DNA from: a virus
DNA: 26,936 bases
Direction: 5' to 3' (one strand)
Virus record (IMG/VR): IMGVR_UViG_3300025300_000084
Span: 1-26,936 of that record
Shown here: positions 15,206-22,476 of the stretch, one piece after another
Layout: every line of letters begins with the position of its first letter
Numbering within the stretch: the first letter of the stretch is position 1
The notes under the pieces: model-generated
The model's database searches: none
Told to the model about the DNA's origin: nothing
What the model saw: the letters and a program-made list of their open reading frames with translations, nothing else
Position numbers and translations under genes: made by a program

Positions 15206-15784
15206 ATGGAAATCTGGTTACCCCTTGAGCTGATAGTAGCCCTGGTTGCCATAATCCCCTATCACCCATTACTGATACGTGGACAAGAACTGGTCTACGA
15301 TGACCTGCCTATTGCCCAGATGATAGATAATCTGGCTACTGAGCATCAAAGGATTGGTCTTAAATTGTTCTCTGTGGGGCCTTACCGATGGTTGGAGAGA
15401 TTAACCTGGTATTGGCAGCTCAAGATATTTGGTAAAGTTCGGCAGACCTGGTTGGCTGTCAATGTTCTTCTACATGTAATCATCAGTTTAGAGGTGCTTT
15501 GGATTGCCATGAGTGTGGATCTGACAACTACTGGCTCTCTACTTGCTGGTTGTCTGTTTGCAGCTCATCCCATGCATGTAACATCCGTAGTGCCAATAGT
15601 TAGTCGAGGTAACCAATTAGTAACCCTGTTCATGCTGGGGTTGGTATTGGGGTTCCTTCATCAGTCCTACCTGCTAATGGCTGTGTGTGCGGCAGGATCT
15701 GTGGGTAGTAATGAGGCTGGTTTAGGGGTTATAGGCTTAACTATATTGTTGATGATTGGAGCTTTATGGCACAGCATATCCTGA
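15206..15784 (+). CDS. GT-C membrane glycosyltransferase, N-terminal half (TMTC-like)
   Basis: A 192-aa membrane protein with about five hydrophobic segments. After the first membrane helix comes a YDD motif at residues 31-33, the position of the catalytic acidic pair in GT-C enzymes. Residues 121-134 read HPMHVTSVVPIVSR, matching the 'HPxHxxxVxxIxxR' loop of TMTC/DUF1736-type O-mannosyltransferases. These enzymes use a polyprenyl-phosphate sugar donor at a membrane. The frame ends where the next, overlapping frame begins, and the pair together resembles one normal-length enzyme. No clear ribosome site precedes ATG 15206. Confidence 0.65.
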   Translation: MEIWLPLELIVALVAIIPYHPLLIRGQELVYDDLPIAQMIDNLATEHQRIGLKLFSVGPYRWLERLTWYWQLKIFGKVRQTWLAVNVLLHVIISLEVLWIAMSVDLTTTGSLLAGCLFAAHPMHVTSVVPIVSRGNQLVTLFMLGLVLGFLHQSYLLMAVCAAGSVGSNEAGLGVIGLTILLMIGALWHSIS

Positions 15785-16728
15785 ATCCCTTACCTGCCAA
15801 GGTATATTATGACTTTACCCTGCGTGGATTAAAGGTAGTTACCACCTATTACCTCTATTTGGGCACCCTTCTAGGCCTGAATCTCAAACTAGATGCTGAT
15901 GATAATGATTTAGATAGATGGATCGGCTTGATAATTGCCCTTCCAGTGGCCTCAGTTGCCTTCTACGGGCTGTTGACAGGTCCAGAGGCAGTTTGGGTAG
16001 GGTTAGCCATGTTTGGTGGCTGTGCGGCGTGGCCACATGCATTTATTGATTTACGTGAACGATGCAGGGATGGCAGAGCCTACATGTTACCTGCAGGATT
16101 GTGCATTATTGCTGGTTGGATTGGTGGGACAGCAGCTTGGTGGCTTTTGATAATTCTGTGGATGGCTTGGTCTACACAACGGGCATTCTGGTACAGGGAT
16201 GGTCTGTTGTTCTGGCAGAAGGCCTTGGAAGGTAGCCCCAATAAAGGTCAGTCATTGCTGGGGGTTACAGTCTACAAACGTATGAAATTTGGGGATGTGC
16301 CGGAGTTGGAACCTGAACTTCTTCATATCATAGACACAGTAACAGATATTGAACGTGAGGTGGCTGCTGCTAATCTGTCTAAGCTGTACATTGCCAGGAA
16401 GGATCTAGACAAAGCTATTGCCATTGCCAGCCGGGGATTAGAGCGATTCCCATATAATGACAGTTGTCGTCACAGTCGTGCCCTGGCTTATATGCATGCA
16501 GGCTTGAATAATGAGGCTATAGCAGACTTTAACGTGGCCATGTCACATAAGAGTTACAAAAACTCCCACCCTACTAGAGTTTGCAGGGCTGTCTGCTATC
16601 ACAATATAGGGCAGATTGACATGTTCAACAGTGAGATGGTTTATGTTATTCAACAGACTTCATTGGAATGGGCTGCGGCTGCTCTGCCTGCTCATATGAG
16701 GCATTTAATTGCTCCTGCTCATACTTGA
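15766..16728 (+). CDS. GT-C glycosyltransferase, C-terminal half with TPR domain
   Basis: A 320-aa product overlapping the previous gene by 19 bases in another frame. Residues ~20-40 (KVVTTYYLYLGTLLGLNL) correspond to the loop-helix that follows the HPxH segment in TMTC-like enzymes. Several membrane helices follow to about residue 145, then 'WYRDGLLFWQKALEGSPNKGQS' in short pieces, then TPR-like helices (AAANLSKLYIARKDLDKAI, ALAYMHAGLNNEAIADFN, RAVCYHNIGQIDMFNSEM). TPRs in this family bind acceptor proteins. A phage could use such an enzyme to glycosylate host surface or virion proteins. The last 83 bases overlap the oppositely oriented XRE gene. Confidence 0.6.
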   Translation: MAQHILNPLPAKVYYDFTLRGLKVVTTYYLYLGTLLGLNLKLDADDNDLDRWIGLIIALPVASVAFYGLLTGPEAVWVGLAMFGGCAAWPHAFIDLRERCRDGRAYMLPAGLCIIAGWIGGTAAWWLLIILWMAWSTQRAFWYRDGLLFWQKALEGSPNKGQSLLGVTVYKRMKFGDVPELEPELLHIIDTVTDIEREVAAANLSKLYIARKDLDKAIAIASRGLERFPYNDSCRHSRALAYMHAGLNNEAIADFNVAMSHKSYKNSHPTRVCRAVCYHNIGQIDMFNSEMVYVIQQTSLEWAAAALPAHMRHLIAPAHT

Positions 16729-17046: not shown

Positions 17047-19632
17047 TCATGCCATCTCTCCCCAATTAACCCCTTGTTTAACAGACGTTTTAAATATTTT
17101 ACCCCCCTGCTCAACTACTGGAAATTCCATTGCCTGCCTCAAGTAAATTGAAACAGCTGCTGCATCCTGATCATCCTTGGCTCTGGCTATAAGCTCATCA
17201 TGGACTGTCAGGAATAACTGCCCCTGATCCAGCAGGTATTTGGCATCGTTAGAACCCATAGCTCGACGCATGATGATAGCTGCTGAACTTTGCTGTTGAT
17301 TGGCCAGAACCTTTTTAGCATCCTCAGCCCGAACCCATACCCACTTACCACCACGTTTGATTGGCTTCTTGACATACCAGAACCATCTCACATAGCCAAA
17401 GTCATTAACTAGATGGGCTTCTCTATGTGCTCTGTCTACAAGGTTATCCTGCCATTTCTTGATTTTAGGGAATAGATCAAAGTACATCCTGGCAGCGCGA
17501 AGGGCATCTTTTCTAGCTGGAAATACCTCTGGGTAATTGACCTGCATGAGATGAGCAGTCATTCCGTTATTCAGACCATTAACTGTTCGTTTGGCGGCGG
17601 CATAAGTGGATGTATGACCCCCCGGTACACGTTTAGCTTTCGTCCTGATTTTAGCTTCACGTATAAGCTCGTCCAACTGACTGTCTGAGGTGGGTATATC
17701 TGGCTGTTCACCCAGGAAATACAATCCCAGGTATGCGTGAATTCCTCTCTCTGCCAAACGTATATAGTCGCTGTCTCCTGCATAATGACCTACTTGAATT
17801 GGCTCTGCCCCGTTGTAGTCTCTGGACACCAGCCATTTGTAACCAGCACCGGGGATCACCATTTGCCTGATACGCTGGTACTCCTCAGTTCTACCAGGCA
17901 GATTGTGGACATTAGGTCTTTTAGCACTGAACCTGAACGTGGCTGGGTTATTGGTAAAGGTTGTGTGGATCAGCCCATCAGATTGAGGCTTCCACCCTGT
18001 TAAATGGCCTATCTTAGACTGTAGTTTCTTGGACTCTACAGCCATGATCAAAACAGGATCACTGGTCTTCTTAGCCAGACGTTCTATCTGATCACCCTCA
18101 GCAGATGGAGTACCAGTTCGTTTGTGTTTGGGCACAGCAGATTGACCATGCTTAAATTCAATATATTTCAACAACTGCTGATGACTGTTGAGGTTAAAAT
18201 CTACAATCTTGGCCCATCTGGTAAACTCTTTAACCAGCTGCTTACCCTCCTCTAACACCATATCCTCAATCTTTACCTGCCTCATTCCTGTGACATCTGC
18301 CGGAGTATTCTTATAACCCCTTTTGGGATGGATATTCTTTAGGGTGTTGGGTACTAGATCTTGTACCTCACTGACAATAATGGCTTGCCTGCCTTCAATA
18401 ATTTCAATTTGAGTAAGCCTGTCCTTGTTGTCTATGGCTATGCCATTAGCAGACATCTGCCTGGTTCTATGGTTGATCTCTACAATATCCTTTTGGAATG
18501 TATCCCACCTGCCTGCAGCTTTTATCTTGACCTGAATAGCCTGCCAGATCTGTAAGAGGCTGTCACTGTCTACGCAGGAATAGAAAGGTTCCTCTACTCC
18601 CTTGAGATGTTTCCATGGCTTTATTTTGGTGAAAAATGGACTGACAAAGCCTAGCTTCTTTGGTAAGTCAGGATATAAAAAATGCCACCCTTCCTGGGCG
18701 TCAACTGTATTGTTGCAGGCAGCATTTTCTGCTTCCAGTCTGGGAATATCAAATCTATCCCCATTCCAAAAAACAAGACTGCCAGCTGCAGCAAGCATTT
18801 TCCTAGCCACATCCACATATTGTCCCTCCCATGGCATCGTTATTGCATGGCCAGCGCGATAACTAAAACTGATCCTTTCAATCTTCATGGGCAGTTCATC
18901 TACCTTATCCTCAGTAGCATCCTCGTCAGCTGGTTGACGTGGGGTTTCAATGTCACTGGCCAAGGTAGTAGTGGGATCGTTTGCTAATGCCTGCAGGTAG
19001 TCTCTGAGGTATTCCTGAGCAACTGTGGCTGATGGTTGGAGGATGTAGTCTGTGGGTTCTGAGTCAAACAGCTTTTCATGGCCATCCCACTCTCGAACCT
19101 CACAAGCCTTCTCAATATCAAACCTGCCTACCTGGATCATCTCAAAATTGCCACGCATCAAATGTGCAGGATGAAAGGTCGGCACTATCCACTTGTTCAA
19201 TCTATGATGTCGATGCACAGTGCCATGGAAATTGGCTATGCCCTTTTGCCCCAGCAGGTAATACAAAGCCACGTTACCCATGGGCACAATGACTTTGATC
19301 TGTGGGTTATCTGCCAGGGTCTGCTCAAAGTAGGGCCTGCAATGCTCAATAGCATCCTCCTGCCATGGAGCACCCTCAAGCCAGTCTCTGGGGGGCCTGC
19401 AATTGACTACATTGGCCACCAGGAAGTCATCCCTATCCAACCCCAGCCTGTGGAGTAGAACGCCCAGCATGATACCTGCAGGGCCTACAAATGGCCTTCC
19501 TTGTTTAGCCTCTGCAGTTCCCAGAGCTTCCCCCAGCAACATGACTCCATTCTTGCCCGTACCTGTGGGCAGGGCAAAGCCATCACCCTTGTTGTAGAGA
19601 TCACATGCTGGGGGGCACCCTGGTCCTGCCAT
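17047..19632 (-). CDS. Uracil-DNA glycosylase / family A DNA polymerase fusion
   Basis: The 861-aa protein joins three domains. Residues 1-~180 are a family 4/5-like uracil-DNA glycosylase: GEALG...GRPFVGPAG (34-53), NVVNCRPP (74-81), FHPAHLMRG (153-161), and Fe-S ligand candidates C6, C10, C78 and C98. Residues ~215-370 are a 3'-5' proofreading exonuclease: SDIET (226-230), NGDRFD (290-295), YSCVD (351-355). Residues ~380-861 are a pol I-type polymerase: motif A D605-Y-N-G-A-E610, motif B around K681, motif C VHDE (810-813). Motif B is divergent: aligned on K681, the positions of E. coli F762 and Y766 are Asn685 and Asn689, and R754 aligns with Tyr677. No 5'-nuclease domain is present. Replicates phage DNA while probably removing or sensing uracil. 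Confidence 0.92.
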   Translation of the reverse strand: MAGPGCPPACDLYNKGDGFALPTGTGKNGVMLLGEALGTAEAKQGRPFVGPAGIMLGVLLHRLGLDRDDFLVANVVNCRPPRDWLEGAPWQEDAIEHCRPYFEQTLADNPQIKVIVPMGNVALYYLLGQKGIANFHGTVHRHHRLNKWIVPTFHPAHLMRGNFEMIQVGRFDIEKACEVREWDGHEKLFDSEPTDYILQPSATVAQEYLRDYLQALANDPTTTLASDIETPRQPADEDATEDKVDELPMKIERISFSYRAGHAITMPWEGQYVDVARKMLAAAGSLVFWNGDRFDIPRLEAENAACNNTVDAQEGWHFLYPDLPKKLGFVSPFFTKIKPWKHLKGVEEPFYSCVDSDSLLQIWQAIQVKIKAAGRWDTFQKDIVEINHRTRQMSANGIAIDNKDRLTQIEIIEGRQAIIVSEVQDLVPNTLKNIHPKRGYKNTPADVTGMRQVKIEDMVLEEGKQLVKEFTRWAKIVDFNLNSHQQLLKYIEFKHGQSAVPKHKRTGTPSAEGDQIERLAKKTSDPVLIMAVESKKLQSKIGHLTGWKPQSDGLIHTTFTNNPATFRFSAKRPNVHNLPGRTEEYQRIRQMVIPGAGYKWLVSRDYNGAEPIQVGHYAGDSDYIRLAERGIHAYLGLYFLGEQPDIPTSDSQLDELIREAKIRTKAKRVPGGHTSTYAAAKRTVNGLNNGMTAHLMQVNYPEVFPARKDALRAARMYFDLFPKIKKWQDNLVDRAHREAHLVNDFGYVRWFWYVKKPIKRGGKWVWVRAEDAKKVLANQQQSSAAIIMRRAMGSNDAKYLLDQGQLFLTVHDELIARAKDDQDAAAVSIYLRQAMEFPVVEQGGKIFKTSVKQGVNWGEMA

Positions 19633-19672: not shown

Positions 19673-19686
19673 TATTTTTATTGACA
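19673..19686 (-). repeat. 14-nt repeat, copy 1 (before the polymerase gene)
   Basis: On the minus strand this reads TGTCAATAAAAATA and is identical to bases 21341-21354, which lie directly before queE. Here it sits about 40 bases before the polymerase start in the 61-base gap after queD. Two identical copies in leader positions of the same operon suggest a shared regulatory or processing site, though A/T-rich words of this length can recur by chance. Confidence 0.35.
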
Positions 19687-19693
19687 TGGTTTT

Positions 19694-20053
19694 TCATTGA
19701 ACCTTTGCCCATTTGTTATGCCCTTCATGCACAGTAACCATGTTTACTATTGGTATCTCTTGTTTAAATTCTGCATACAACATAGTTGCTATATTTTCTA
19801 CAGTTGGTGTTGTAAGGAATAGATTTAAATCCTTATGGTCATACTTGTCTAACACCACTCTGAGCTTCTCCTTAATCAACCCAAAATCCATAACCATTCC
19901 TTGCTCATAGTGAAGCTGATCTGGAACCAGTTTCAGTTCATCTTTCAATTCAATATCTATCTGGTAGGTATGGCCATGCACTCCGCCACATTTAGGATGT
20001 CCTGGCAGGTGGTGAGCACAATCCATATATAATGTAATGCCTATAGTGATCAT
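19694..20053 (-). CDS. queD: 6-carboxytetrahydropterin synthase (QueD)
   Basis: A 119-aa protein with the full QueD active site. Zinc ligands are H14 (CAHHLPGH), H26 and H28 (VHGHTY); the catalytic Cys is C22; MDFG, DHKDLN and PTVENIA follow in the usual order; and the substrate-anchoring Glu is in TVHEG near the end. The enzyme converts dihydroneopterin triphosphate to 6-carboxy-tetrahydropterin, the first dedicated step to 7-deazaguanines. Length is normal for the family. It lies four bases after the transglycosylase stop in the minus-strand operon, so the pterin product feeds QueE, encoded two genes upstream. GTP cyclohydrolase is not in the window and is presumably host-supplied. Confidence 0.9.
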   Translation of the reverse strand: MITIGITLYMDCAHHLPGHPKCGGVHGHTYQIDIELKDELKLVPDQLHYEQGMVMDFGLIKEKLRVVLDKYDHKDLNLFLTTPTVENIATMLYAEFKQEIPIVNMVTVHEGHNKWAKVQ

Positions 20054-20057
20054 TCCC

Positions 20058-20777
20058 TCAACCCCATAATTTTAGTTGTTTACCCGCATTTGACTGCATT
20101 TCCCAAGTTGGTAAGCATTGCTGCATATCCCACCTGTTTGCCATATCTACAGCCGACCTGCCGTACTTTTCCCTGACTTCGTTGTGATGTCTAGCAATGT
20201 CTGAGGAGTCTACAGAAGCAAACGGAAATAGCATCTTGACTGTTTGCATCCCGCGCAACATATGAATAGGAACAGCCAGATCCAGCCTACTTTGCAGTAC
20301 ATCAAAGGCTTCGGAAACGCGCTCCATCCAGTCCTCAGCACCTACTTGGCTATACTTACCACTAGAACCAAAGCAAATGCGGTCGTACCCAATATACAGG
20401 CGCAACAACCTGTCGAAGCTTTCATGCAAGTGCCATACCGGTGCAGCTTGACGCAGATGGCCAATACGGGCATACCACTCACAGAGCAGATAATCATTTT
20501 CTTTTTCAGTACCATCAATCACATCAGGTATGACTGCCCAGGTAGTTACATATCGACACCAATAATCAACCCAGTCATAATAAGGTTGCCAATCTTGGAC
20601 AGGCTTATTCAGTTTCCAAGCACTAAATGCTCCATTGTCTAACATTACAGACTGACCAATTTGGTGGGCTATTTTTACTTGGCAAGGGCGGTGAAAACTA
20701 ACACAAAAATTTCTCCCAACCAGTGTTTCCAATACATTGTTGGGTGTAATTGGAGTGCCGTGATAGTGAATTGTCAT
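20058..20777 (-). CDS. dpdA: DpdA-like 7-deazaguanine DNA transglycosylase
   Basis: This 239-aa protein resembles the tRNA-guanine transglycosylase relatives that insert 7-deazaguanine bases into phage DNA. Key features are LDNGAFSAW (46-54, with D47), IPDVIDG (83-89), CFGSSGKYS (135-143), HMLRGMQ (172-178) and FASVDSSD (186-193), where the Asp of SVDSS matches the nucleophile position. The Cys-rich zinc site of tRNA enzymes is absent. ATG 20777 is chosen because it overlaps the queE stop as ATGA and has GGGGAG four bases upstream; a start 12 bases earlier has no such support. Placement between queE and queD makes DNA-base exchange by far the likeliest role. Confidence 0.85.
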   Translation of the reverse strand: MTIHYHGTPITPNNVLETLVGRNFCVSFHRPCQVKIAHQIGQSVMLDNGAFSAWKLNKPVQDWQPYYDWVDYWCRYVTTWAVIPDVIDGTEKENDYLLCEWYARIGHLRQAAPVWHLHESFDRLLRLYIGYDRICFGSSGKYSQVGAEDWMERVSEAFDVLQSRLDLAVPIHMLRGMQTVKMLFPFASVDSSDIARHHNEVREKYGRSAVDMANRWDMQQCLPTWEMQSNAGKQLKLWG

Positions 20778-21340
20778 AGCACTCCCCATTGTTTATGCTG
20801 TTGAGTGCTGAGATGCCACTTGGGGTACTTCATATAAAAGTCTATAGATGCCTGCAGGTTGTGTTTGTAATTCTTGTCCATAACTGGCTGAATGGACCAC
20901 CATTTGAAGTTGAGGTGAGTATAGGCATGAGGGTCAAACGCAGGATATAGCACTTTTATTTCATCCCCTGTCATTACAACTAACTTTTTTGTCTTTGGGC
21001 TGACGCAAATCCAGTCCAAATTGTGTGGTAATGGATGCCCTCCATGTGTCTCTATATGTGTTGTTAGGCCAACTTCTTGCAGAAGTTGGATCAGGCTTAC
21101 ATTTACCTGCAATGCAGGTTCTCCGCCAGTTAATACAACATGAGTGCAGTTACTGGTATTGGCTTCTTGAATGTCATGTACAAGTTGATTTCCTGAATAT
21201 GTCTTACCTCCCTCAAAATCAGTGTCGCAGAATCCACACTCTAGATCGCAGCCAGCAAACCTACAAAATACAGCTGGTGTTCCAGCCCAATATCCCTCCC
21301 CTTGAATTGTGTAAAAAATGGACTTGATCTTGTACATCAT
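20774..21340 (-). CDS. queE: 7-carboxy-7-deazaguanine synthase (QueE), radical SAM
   Basis: A 188-aa radical SAM enzyme. FYTIQGEG (9-16) and the CX3CX2C cluster C31-C35-C38 (CDLECGFCDTDF) bind the 4Fe-4S cluster and SAM; LTGGEP (70-75) and the VSPK motif are also present. It converts 6-carboxy-tetrahydropterin to 7-carboxy-7-deazaguanine (CDG). An in-frame TTG further upstream would add 17 Cys-containing residues, but homologues start near MYKIKSIFYTIQGEG, so ATG 21340 (or 21337) is preferred; neither has a good ribosome site. Its end overlaps dpdA by four bases. With no queC visible downstream, CDG may be the end product. Confidence 0.92.
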   Translation of the reverse strand: MMYKIKSIFYTIQGEGYWAGTPAVFCRFAGCDLECGFCDTDFEGGKTYSGNQLVHDIQEANTSNCTHVVLTGGEPALQVNVSLIQLLQEVGLTTHIETHGGHPLPHNLDWICVSPKTKKLVVMTGDEIKVLYPAFDPHAYTHLNFKWWSIQPVMDKNYKHNLQASIDFYMKYPKWHLSTQQHKQWGVL

Positions 21341-21354
21341 TATTTTTATTGACA
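21341..21354 (-). repeat. 14-nt repeat, copy 2 (directly before queE)
   Basis: Identical to bases 19673-19686; the minus strand reads TGTCAATAAAAATA and abuts the queE start codon, in the place where a ribosome site is expected but not found. It lies in the 85-base gap between the zinc/winged-helix gene and queE. A site for translational or transcriptional control is possible. Confidence 0.35.
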
Positions 21355-21425
21355 GGCTCAGAAGACAATAACCACAGTCAGCACAAACCAACCAATGGCC
21401 AACGCAAGCCCGAAGGCTATGTCAC

Positions 21426-21830
21426 CTACCCACTCTGGGATTTCGATGAGCATTTTCTCTCCAACTCTCTAATTCGACGTAATACCCACTCAGGGTCTAT
21501 AACCACCTTTGTAGGCTCTGAACCACGGTCTGTTCGTATCAGTGGTACACCTGCTGCTTCCAGGGCCAACAAGGATCTGTATATTGTCCTGCGGGATACC
21601 TCATACCTTTGCTGCAGTGTTGTTGTCGTTTGGTATCTTGACGCAATCAACAACAGGAGCATGTCCACGTTTCTGATGGTTGAGCGGTTTCTATAGAAGT
21701 TGTCATCAGCACAGGATTTACAGTGGCTGTGGAAGCCATAGCGCATCCACTTGGATCTATAGAAATATTCACTGGTCAGTGGTTTCTCCACCTGACATCT
21801 ACAACAACAAGTAGTGGCTGGTATTACCAA
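21426..21830 (-). CDS. Zinc-finger / winged helix-turn-helix protein
   Basis: A 134-aa two-domain protein. Residues 8-45 form a zinc ribbon, with CxxC (C9/C12, within a run of cysteines) and HCKSC (C37/C40), of the type often fused to phage HNH or regulatory proteins. Residues ~55-105 resemble an HTH_11-like winged helix: LLLLIASRYQ, TTTLQQRYEV, SRRTIYRSLLALEAAGVPL, and a wing IRTDRGSEP. The C-terminus is basic. The TTG start lies one base after the preceding stop, with GGAG nine bases upstream. It is probably a transcription factor; its place directly before queE suggests it controls the DNA-modification genes, but no target site is shown. Confidence 0.65.
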   Translation of the reverse strand: MVIPATTCCCRCQVEKPLTSEYFYRSKWMRYGFHSHCKSCADDNFYRNRSTIRNVDMLLLLIASRYQTTTTLQQRYEVSRRTIYRSLLALEAAGVPLIRTDRGSEPTKVVIDPEWVLRRIRELERKCSSKSQSG

Positions 21831-21831
21831 T

Positions 21832-22476
21832 CTAGTTCACTCCAGTGGTTACCTTTGATGTATAAGGCACCCCACCTAGCAGTTGCTTCAGATCACCTTT
21901 GGCCAGATGGCTAAAGTCAGTCTGGGGGGTGATGTAGGGCTTCACGAACTGCATTAGAATGGCTGGTCTGGGGATCTTCGAGTGATTGATTGAACTGGTG
22001 TGTAAGATGTCTGGTCGGCTTATTAGAACGTCACCGCATCTTGATTGTGAATCAGGGACATCCTGTATCAGCGTACAACCACTTGGATTGGCAGAATCAA
22101 CCAGCGGGACAATGACTTGAATAGCCAGGGATTCAGTCAAACCACACTTCAAACCATAAGCCTCAATGTTATAGGGATAATCAATATGCCAATCCATCTC
22201 AAAACATGGGTCTGGATAGATTGTATTTGATTCAAATGCAGACAGGATAAAACCAGATCCAAGCATTTCTCTTGAGGCATCCAAAATTGCTGGATTTAAA
22301 AGCAGCTCGGTAAAGCAATCCTTAGTGCCAAGCAAATCAAAGATTCGCTGATCCGTAAAGCAGGCAGTAGAATGCCGCTCATCTGCACGATACTGCCGAT
22401 TACGCTCCATGACGTAATAGTGCAATGTAGACACCAGTTCGAGTGGGATTACGCCTTCAAGGATTGTCATTTGCAT
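21832..22476 (-). CDS. Phytanoyl-CoA dioxygenase-like Fe(II)/2-oxoglutarate oxygenase
   Basis: The 214-aa protein has the facial triad of the PhyH family: H97 and D99 in MDWHIDYP, H159 in DILHTSS, and R170 (KIPRPA) as the likely 2-oxoglutarate salt-bridge residue. Length is near the family norm. These enzymes hydroxylate small molecules, and related 2OG oxygenases (TET/JBP) act on bases in DNA. It is in the same operon as queE, dpdA and queD, so a role in tailoring the modified base or its precursor is plausible; modification of a host metabolite is the alternative. ATG 22476 overlaps the previous gene by 20 bases. Confidence 0.8.
   Translation of the reverse strand: MQMTILEGVIPLELVSTLHYYVMERNRQYRADERHSTACFTDQRIFDLLGTKDCFTELLLNPAILDASREMLGSGFILSAFESNTIYPDPCFEMDWHIDYPYNIEAYGLKCGLTESLAIQVIVPLVDSANPSGCTLIQDVPDSQSRCGDVLISRPDILHTSSINHSKIPRPAILMQFVKPYITPQTDFSHLAKGDLKQLLGGVPYTSKVTTGVN

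Follow-up and report, generated by a model that had tools for sequence, protein, structure and literature searches.

The window, which is the whole stretch of DNA that we analyzed (an entire IMG/VR record of 26,936 bases, linear and probably a fragment), carries on its minus strand three contiguous genes, queE, dpdA and queD. We read these, at a probability of roughly 70%, as a phage DNA-modification cassette that inserts a 7-deazaguanine, with the neighboring oxygenase gene lying outside the pathway. An earlier sequence-only reading had proposed a phage DNA 7-deazaguanine pathway built from QueD, QueE and a DpdA-type transglycosylase, and family, motif and fold matches lend support to such a predicted pathway.

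Across the record, head and tail genes occupy the plus strand and replication genes the minus strand; neither a terminase nor a portal was recognized within its 26,936 linear bases. The three cassette genes and the oxygenase gene were all recovered on the minus strand where they had first been placed, save for corrections to start positions. The start of queE was corrected to 21340, and that of dpdA is most likely 20777 rather than 20789, from which the ORF is open. The dpdA ATG at 20777 overlaps the queE TGA stop as ATGA, and the contiguity described from the sequence is borne out by this 4-nt overlap and by the 4-nt gap between dpdA and queD. The order of transcription on the minus strand is oxygenase, zinc-ribbon/HTH protein, a possible 31-aa peptide, queE, dpdA, queD and a glycosylase-polymerase fusion. 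The features are as follows.

17047-19632, minus strand: fusion of a family-4 uracil-DNA glycosylase (UDG) domain with a family A DNA polymerase
19673..19686, minus strand: second copy of the 14-nt element TGTCAATAAAAATA, between queD and the polymerase gene
19694..20053, minus strand: queD, 6-carboxytetrahydropterin synthase, canonical, 119 aa (PTPS match, alignment to 4ntm, Cys/Glu comparison)
20058..20777, minus strand: dpdA, short-type DNA guanine transglycosylase, 239 aa (PHROG 887, identity to Pam5, AF2 model)
20774..21340, minus strand: queE, 7-carboxy-7-deazaguanine (CDG) synthase, 188 aa (TIGR04508, solved QueE 4njg, motifs)
21341..21354, minus strand: 14-nt exact repeat TGTCAATAAAAATA, adjoining the start of queE (repeat comparison in the window)
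21358..21453, minus strand: candidate 31-aa single-transmembrane peptide filling the gap upstream of queE (sequence reading alone)
21426..21830, minus strand: small zinc-ribbon and HTH protein between the oxygenase gene and queE (HTH_11, 4.8e-8; PHROG 1035, 1.5e-6)
21832..22476, minus strand: PhyH-type Fe(II)/2-oxoglutarate oxygenase, a neighbor gene (weak PhyH match, bacterial homologues)

The two copies of TGTCAATAAAAATA flank queE-dpdA-queD and leave the oxygenase gene outside. They may be a shared regulatory element or a chance pair, and we consider them suggestive only, because the window has other 14-nt repeat pairs. The product of 21426..21830 has an endonuclease VII-like N-terminus (the PHROG 1035 match) and is a probable DNA-binding protein, judging from its domains. 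The UDG-polymerase fusion is a long arrangement shared with Microcystis phage Mel-JY34 at 21% identity. On the plus strand, two overlapping ORFs at 15206-16728, one a multi-pass membrane protein and one a membrane protein with TPRs, resemble, taken together, a TMTC/PMT-type glycosyltransferase split in two; their matches are to TPRs only and weak. No RNA families or tRNAs were found in the window. Whole-phage relatives sought through the polymerase or the capsid were all distant, and therefore the completeness of the genome was not judged from a sister genome.

The family assignments of QueE, QueD and DpdA are far above chance. QueE matches NCBIfam TIGR04508 (5e-52), PHROG 2076 (6e-32) and the solved QueE 4njg (1.5e-38), and it retains the CxxxCxxC cluster cysteines (C31/C35/C38) as well as GGEP. 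QueD matches Pfam PTPS (4.9e-23), TIGR03367 (1.6e-21) and the solved QueD 4ntm (1.7e-8); alignment to the latter shows that the catalytic residues C22 and E110 and the zinc histidines H14/H26/H28 are kept. DpdA matches PHROG 887 at 9e-51 and is 49% identical to the transglycosylase of Pseudanabaena phage Pam5. Its D51, H176 and D194 are invariant across 56 relatives, so the key residues of all three proteins are intact, as had been claimed from the sequence. An AlphaFold2 model of DpdA built from those 56 sequences reached a pLDDT of 92.7. The model adopts the tRNA-guanine transglycosylase (TGT) fold, with a Z score of 15.5 over 227 residues to its nearest solved structure, an archaeal TGT, and 50 of the 50 matches listed in the structure search are TGT or TGT-like.

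The same fold would suit an enzyme that serves tRNA, boosting queuosine, in place of DNA. We consider this very unlikely, as the CxCxxC zinc motif and the C-terminal tRNA domain are both missing from the 239-aa DpdA sequence, and the protein groups with phage DpdA (PHROG 887), a short member of which, in Pantoea phage MED16, comes from a phage with modified DNA. Clustering of the precursor genes queD and queE with dpdA is itself a feature of phage DpdA systems and is seen here.

Among known systems, phages 9g and CAjan (Hutinet 2019, PMC6884629) likewise have a single gene cluster that holds QueD, QueE and a DpdA of TGT fold, and DpdA-dependent modification and protection were shown in CAjan (PMC6884629). 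The landmark residues of the window DpdA have counterparts in CAjan DpdA. However, the window lacks the QueC, FolE and amidotransferase of these systems, and its DpdA is of the short, ~240-aa type and only 21% identical to that of CAjan. The short or singleton DpdAs of MED16, Pam5 and Caulobacter phage DMCA belong to the same subfamily, at 35-51% identity (35-37% for MED16). Their surroundings differ from those of the window trio: in MED16 dpdA stands alone, in Pam5 a VUT transporter gene adjoins dpdA, and DMCA has a QueD-like gene without the catalytic cysteine, unlike the canonical QueD of the window. MED16 DNA contains dADG (PMC8306585), but modification is very low (0.13% of G) and gives no visible protection (PMC8306585); therefore, any benefit of a short DpdA is putative.

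The absence of queC was only suspected from the sequence, and it now stands as a trait common to this type of cassette. A search of the 26.9-kb record, a fragment, with PF06508 gave no queC match even at an E value of 10, and a search with PF01227 gave no folE match in the same fragment. We surveyed viral loci to judge how far this absence can be trusted. In 35/35 viral loci having queC, its distance from queE does not exceed 1.3 kb. Searching 50 queE-bearing records over their whole length found queC in 18, all already known near queE, with no additional copy farther away. Furthermore, QueC was found in none of 48 records with a short DpdA, and in 0/15 deduplicated queE loci (near-copies removed) having the most window-like DpdA, defined as 248 bits or more. 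With ~5 kb of the record to one side of queE and ~20 kb to the other, the phage probably has no queC, although in a fragment the gene could still sit outside. The close spacing of queC and queE, the lack of distant copies and the empty short-DpdA records make the lack look genuine. The survey thus shows a missing queC to be the rule for window-like short DpdAs, as a strong tendency in the sequences and not a proof, since many of the surveyed contigs are fragments. In a tree, the window QueE groups mostly with queC-bearing viruses, on a long branch, which would fit a queC recently lost or displaced.

The cassette recurs elsewhere. At least eight other viral contigs (L006, L023, L028, L029, L042, L045, L071 and L079), found from DpdA, carry the same three families contiguously and without QueC, with queD or a QueD-like gene and in shuffled order, different from that of the window; searching from QueE gave the same trio in more contigs. 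The window arrangement is therefore a recurring kind and not a one-off, a point absent from the earlier reading. In seven of the eight, all except L029, the QueD-like protein lacks the catalytic cysteine, whereas the window QueD is canonical. About one third of short dpdA genes lie near a gene for a VUT/YhhQ-type preQ0 transporter in place of queE, for example in L002, L004, L008 and L046.

In the proposed pathway, host FolE would supply dihydroneopterin triphosphate, which phage QueD would convert to CPH4 and phage QueE would convert on to CDG, per the established activities of their families. The short DpdA, with its TGT fold and without the tRNA-type zinc-binding domain, would then by analogy replace guanine in phage DNA with a 7-deazaguanine. 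Protection against host restriction would be expected to follow, as in phage DpdA systems such as that of CAjan. With no queC in the phage, the phage should make CDG, and therefore the inserted base should be either CDG or ADG/preQ0 made by host QueC. We regard direct CDG insertion and host-finished ADG/preQ0 as about equally likely.

Insertion of CDG itself (dCDG), in which the phage raises the CDG pool and DpdA accepts CDG directly with no QueC step, is a possibility somewhat short of even. It is favored by the absence of queC from both the record and the cassette type, queC being the gene that is regularly omitted. Cui et al. 2023 reportedly count dCDG among natural phage bases. Sets of this kind are already known, and the cassette type is not new: phages in which queC is the sole missing gene were described earlier, with CDG suggested as the base of one of them, Mycobacterium phage Bipper (Hutinet 2019, PMC6884629), and Planktothrix cyanophage contigs hold FolE/QueD/QueE sets without QueC (PMC10343443). 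However, QueC is present in most hosts (the QueC profile control gave matches in 12-14/14 genomes), and phage 9g DpdA produced no dCDG in E. coli. Additionally, the nearest DpdA on the tree, that of L008 on a long branch, adjoins a preQ0/preQ1 transporter-like gene.

That last point also bears on the other reading, in which QueD and QueE boost CDG, host QueC completes it to ADG/preQ0 and DpdA inserts the product; we give this close to an even chance. The earlier reading had already allowed for preQ0 from the host. VUT/YhhQ-type transporter genes adjoin 32 of 88 short DpdAs, and in the DpdA tree the link to queE switches six times, so that transporter-linked and queE-linked lineages interleave. 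This pattern suggests that lineages may swap between precursor synthesis and precursor import. The E. coli transporter QPTR/YhhQ carries preQ0/preQ1 (PMC11130926), and MED16, with dpdA and no precursor genes, has dPreQ0 traces beside its dADG (PMC8306585). Completion by the host nonetheless leaves unexplained why many cassettes retain queE yet never queC.

The QueD-like proteins of most queC-less cassettes lack both catalytic residues, Cys and Glu, and keep the zinc histidines; a canonical QueD in such a cassette is restricted to the window and a few others. Examples of the Cys-less form are at L006:9642-9998, L023:2978-3268, L079:11274-11594 and L003:5720-6016 (DMCA), as well as in L045, L071 and L099-L103; the HxH zinc site is retained, and the Glu is often Arg. 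With near-copies removed, 16/18 loci with the Cys-less form lack QueC, versus 6/24 loci without that form (p = 4e-5). This association is strong in raw counts but comes from few independent origins, with 3 pairs usable for a test of independent evolution. The Cys-less protein may be a CDG-acting enzyme such as a decarboxylase. Both dCDG and 7-deazaguanine have reportedly been described in phages by Cui et al. 2023, who are said to predict a CDG decarboxylase, DpdL. The Cys-less QueD-like protein is perhaps this DpdL.

The sequence-only reading had also cast the oxygenase as a possible further step in the pathway, and this part was not supported. The protein is a genuine PhyH relative, based on its motif and on full-length similarity to Streptomyces, Actinomadura and Mycetohabitans proteins. 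The Pfam PhyH (PF05721) match of 17.4 bits falls below the curated cut-off of 22, and a tblastn comparison to annotated PhyH proteins gave 2e-6. The HxD...H iron triad and the 2OG-binding Arg are present (H97, D99, H159 and R170), and these residues, named in the earlier reading, are indeed invariant against bacterial homologues at 25-32% identity (plasmid and Streptomyces) or 24-32% across Streptomyces, Actinomadura and Mycetohabitans. A single-sequence structure model reached a pLDDT of 31, too low to be informative.

Such an enzyme could act on the base or on one of its precursors, for instance by oxidizing or oxidatively decarboxylating CDG, to give a new 7-deazaguanine. The gene shares a strand with dpdA and stands three genes upstream of it in a tightly spaced row, its Fe/2OG residues are intact, and the Cys-less QueD-like protein typical of most queC-less cassettes is missing from the window. 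However, all of the neighboring replication genes lie on the same strand, and therefore gene order says little. Co-occurrence with dpdA, whose lack across relatives the earlier reading had named as refuting the link, was not seen: a PhyH gene turned up in none of 48 short-DpdA and 50 further queE records (98 in total, window excluded; fragmentary contigs). The Pfam profile detects the window oxygenase itself only at an E value of 0.02, so its sensitivity is low and distant relatives could be missed. A home-built profile from the window oxygenase and its bacterial homologues found no such relative either, and PF13640 gave a single sub-threshold match, in the record of L099. No homologue was found in phage records or other viral contigs. 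In bacteria, the homologues have further 2OG genes and radical SAM genes as neighbors or lie in contexts where no 7-deazaguanine genes were noticed, unlike the window gene. We consider a role on the base or precursor highly improbable, and an undescribed oxidized or decarboxylated 7-deazaguanine made in the slot of QueC or of the Cys-less QueD-like protein would be just as improbable.

The oxygenase was set aside as a pathway member for want of co-occurrence. L180, the one alignment-based match to the oxygenase among viruses, is a structural protein that aligned by chance. The gap upstream of queE was abandoned as a transcription-unit boundary excluding the oxygenase because the 31-aa ORF fills it. 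As a separate observation, the gut phage record MT835580.1 (L089, L093) combines queE and queC with a QueD-like gene of the Cys-less kind, and 15 kb from these it has a strong PhyH gene; it is the sole queE-bearing record besides the window having PhyH.

The oxygenase is thus probably a separate gene on the replication-gene strand, unrelated to the pathway, and its removal from the proposed scheme avoids a misleading lead. The queE-dpdA-queD genes of the window now join a type of phage 7-deazaguanine cassette that lacks queC and recurs in viruses, and the predicted nucleoside in phage DNA would be dCDG or host-finished dPreQ0/dADG.
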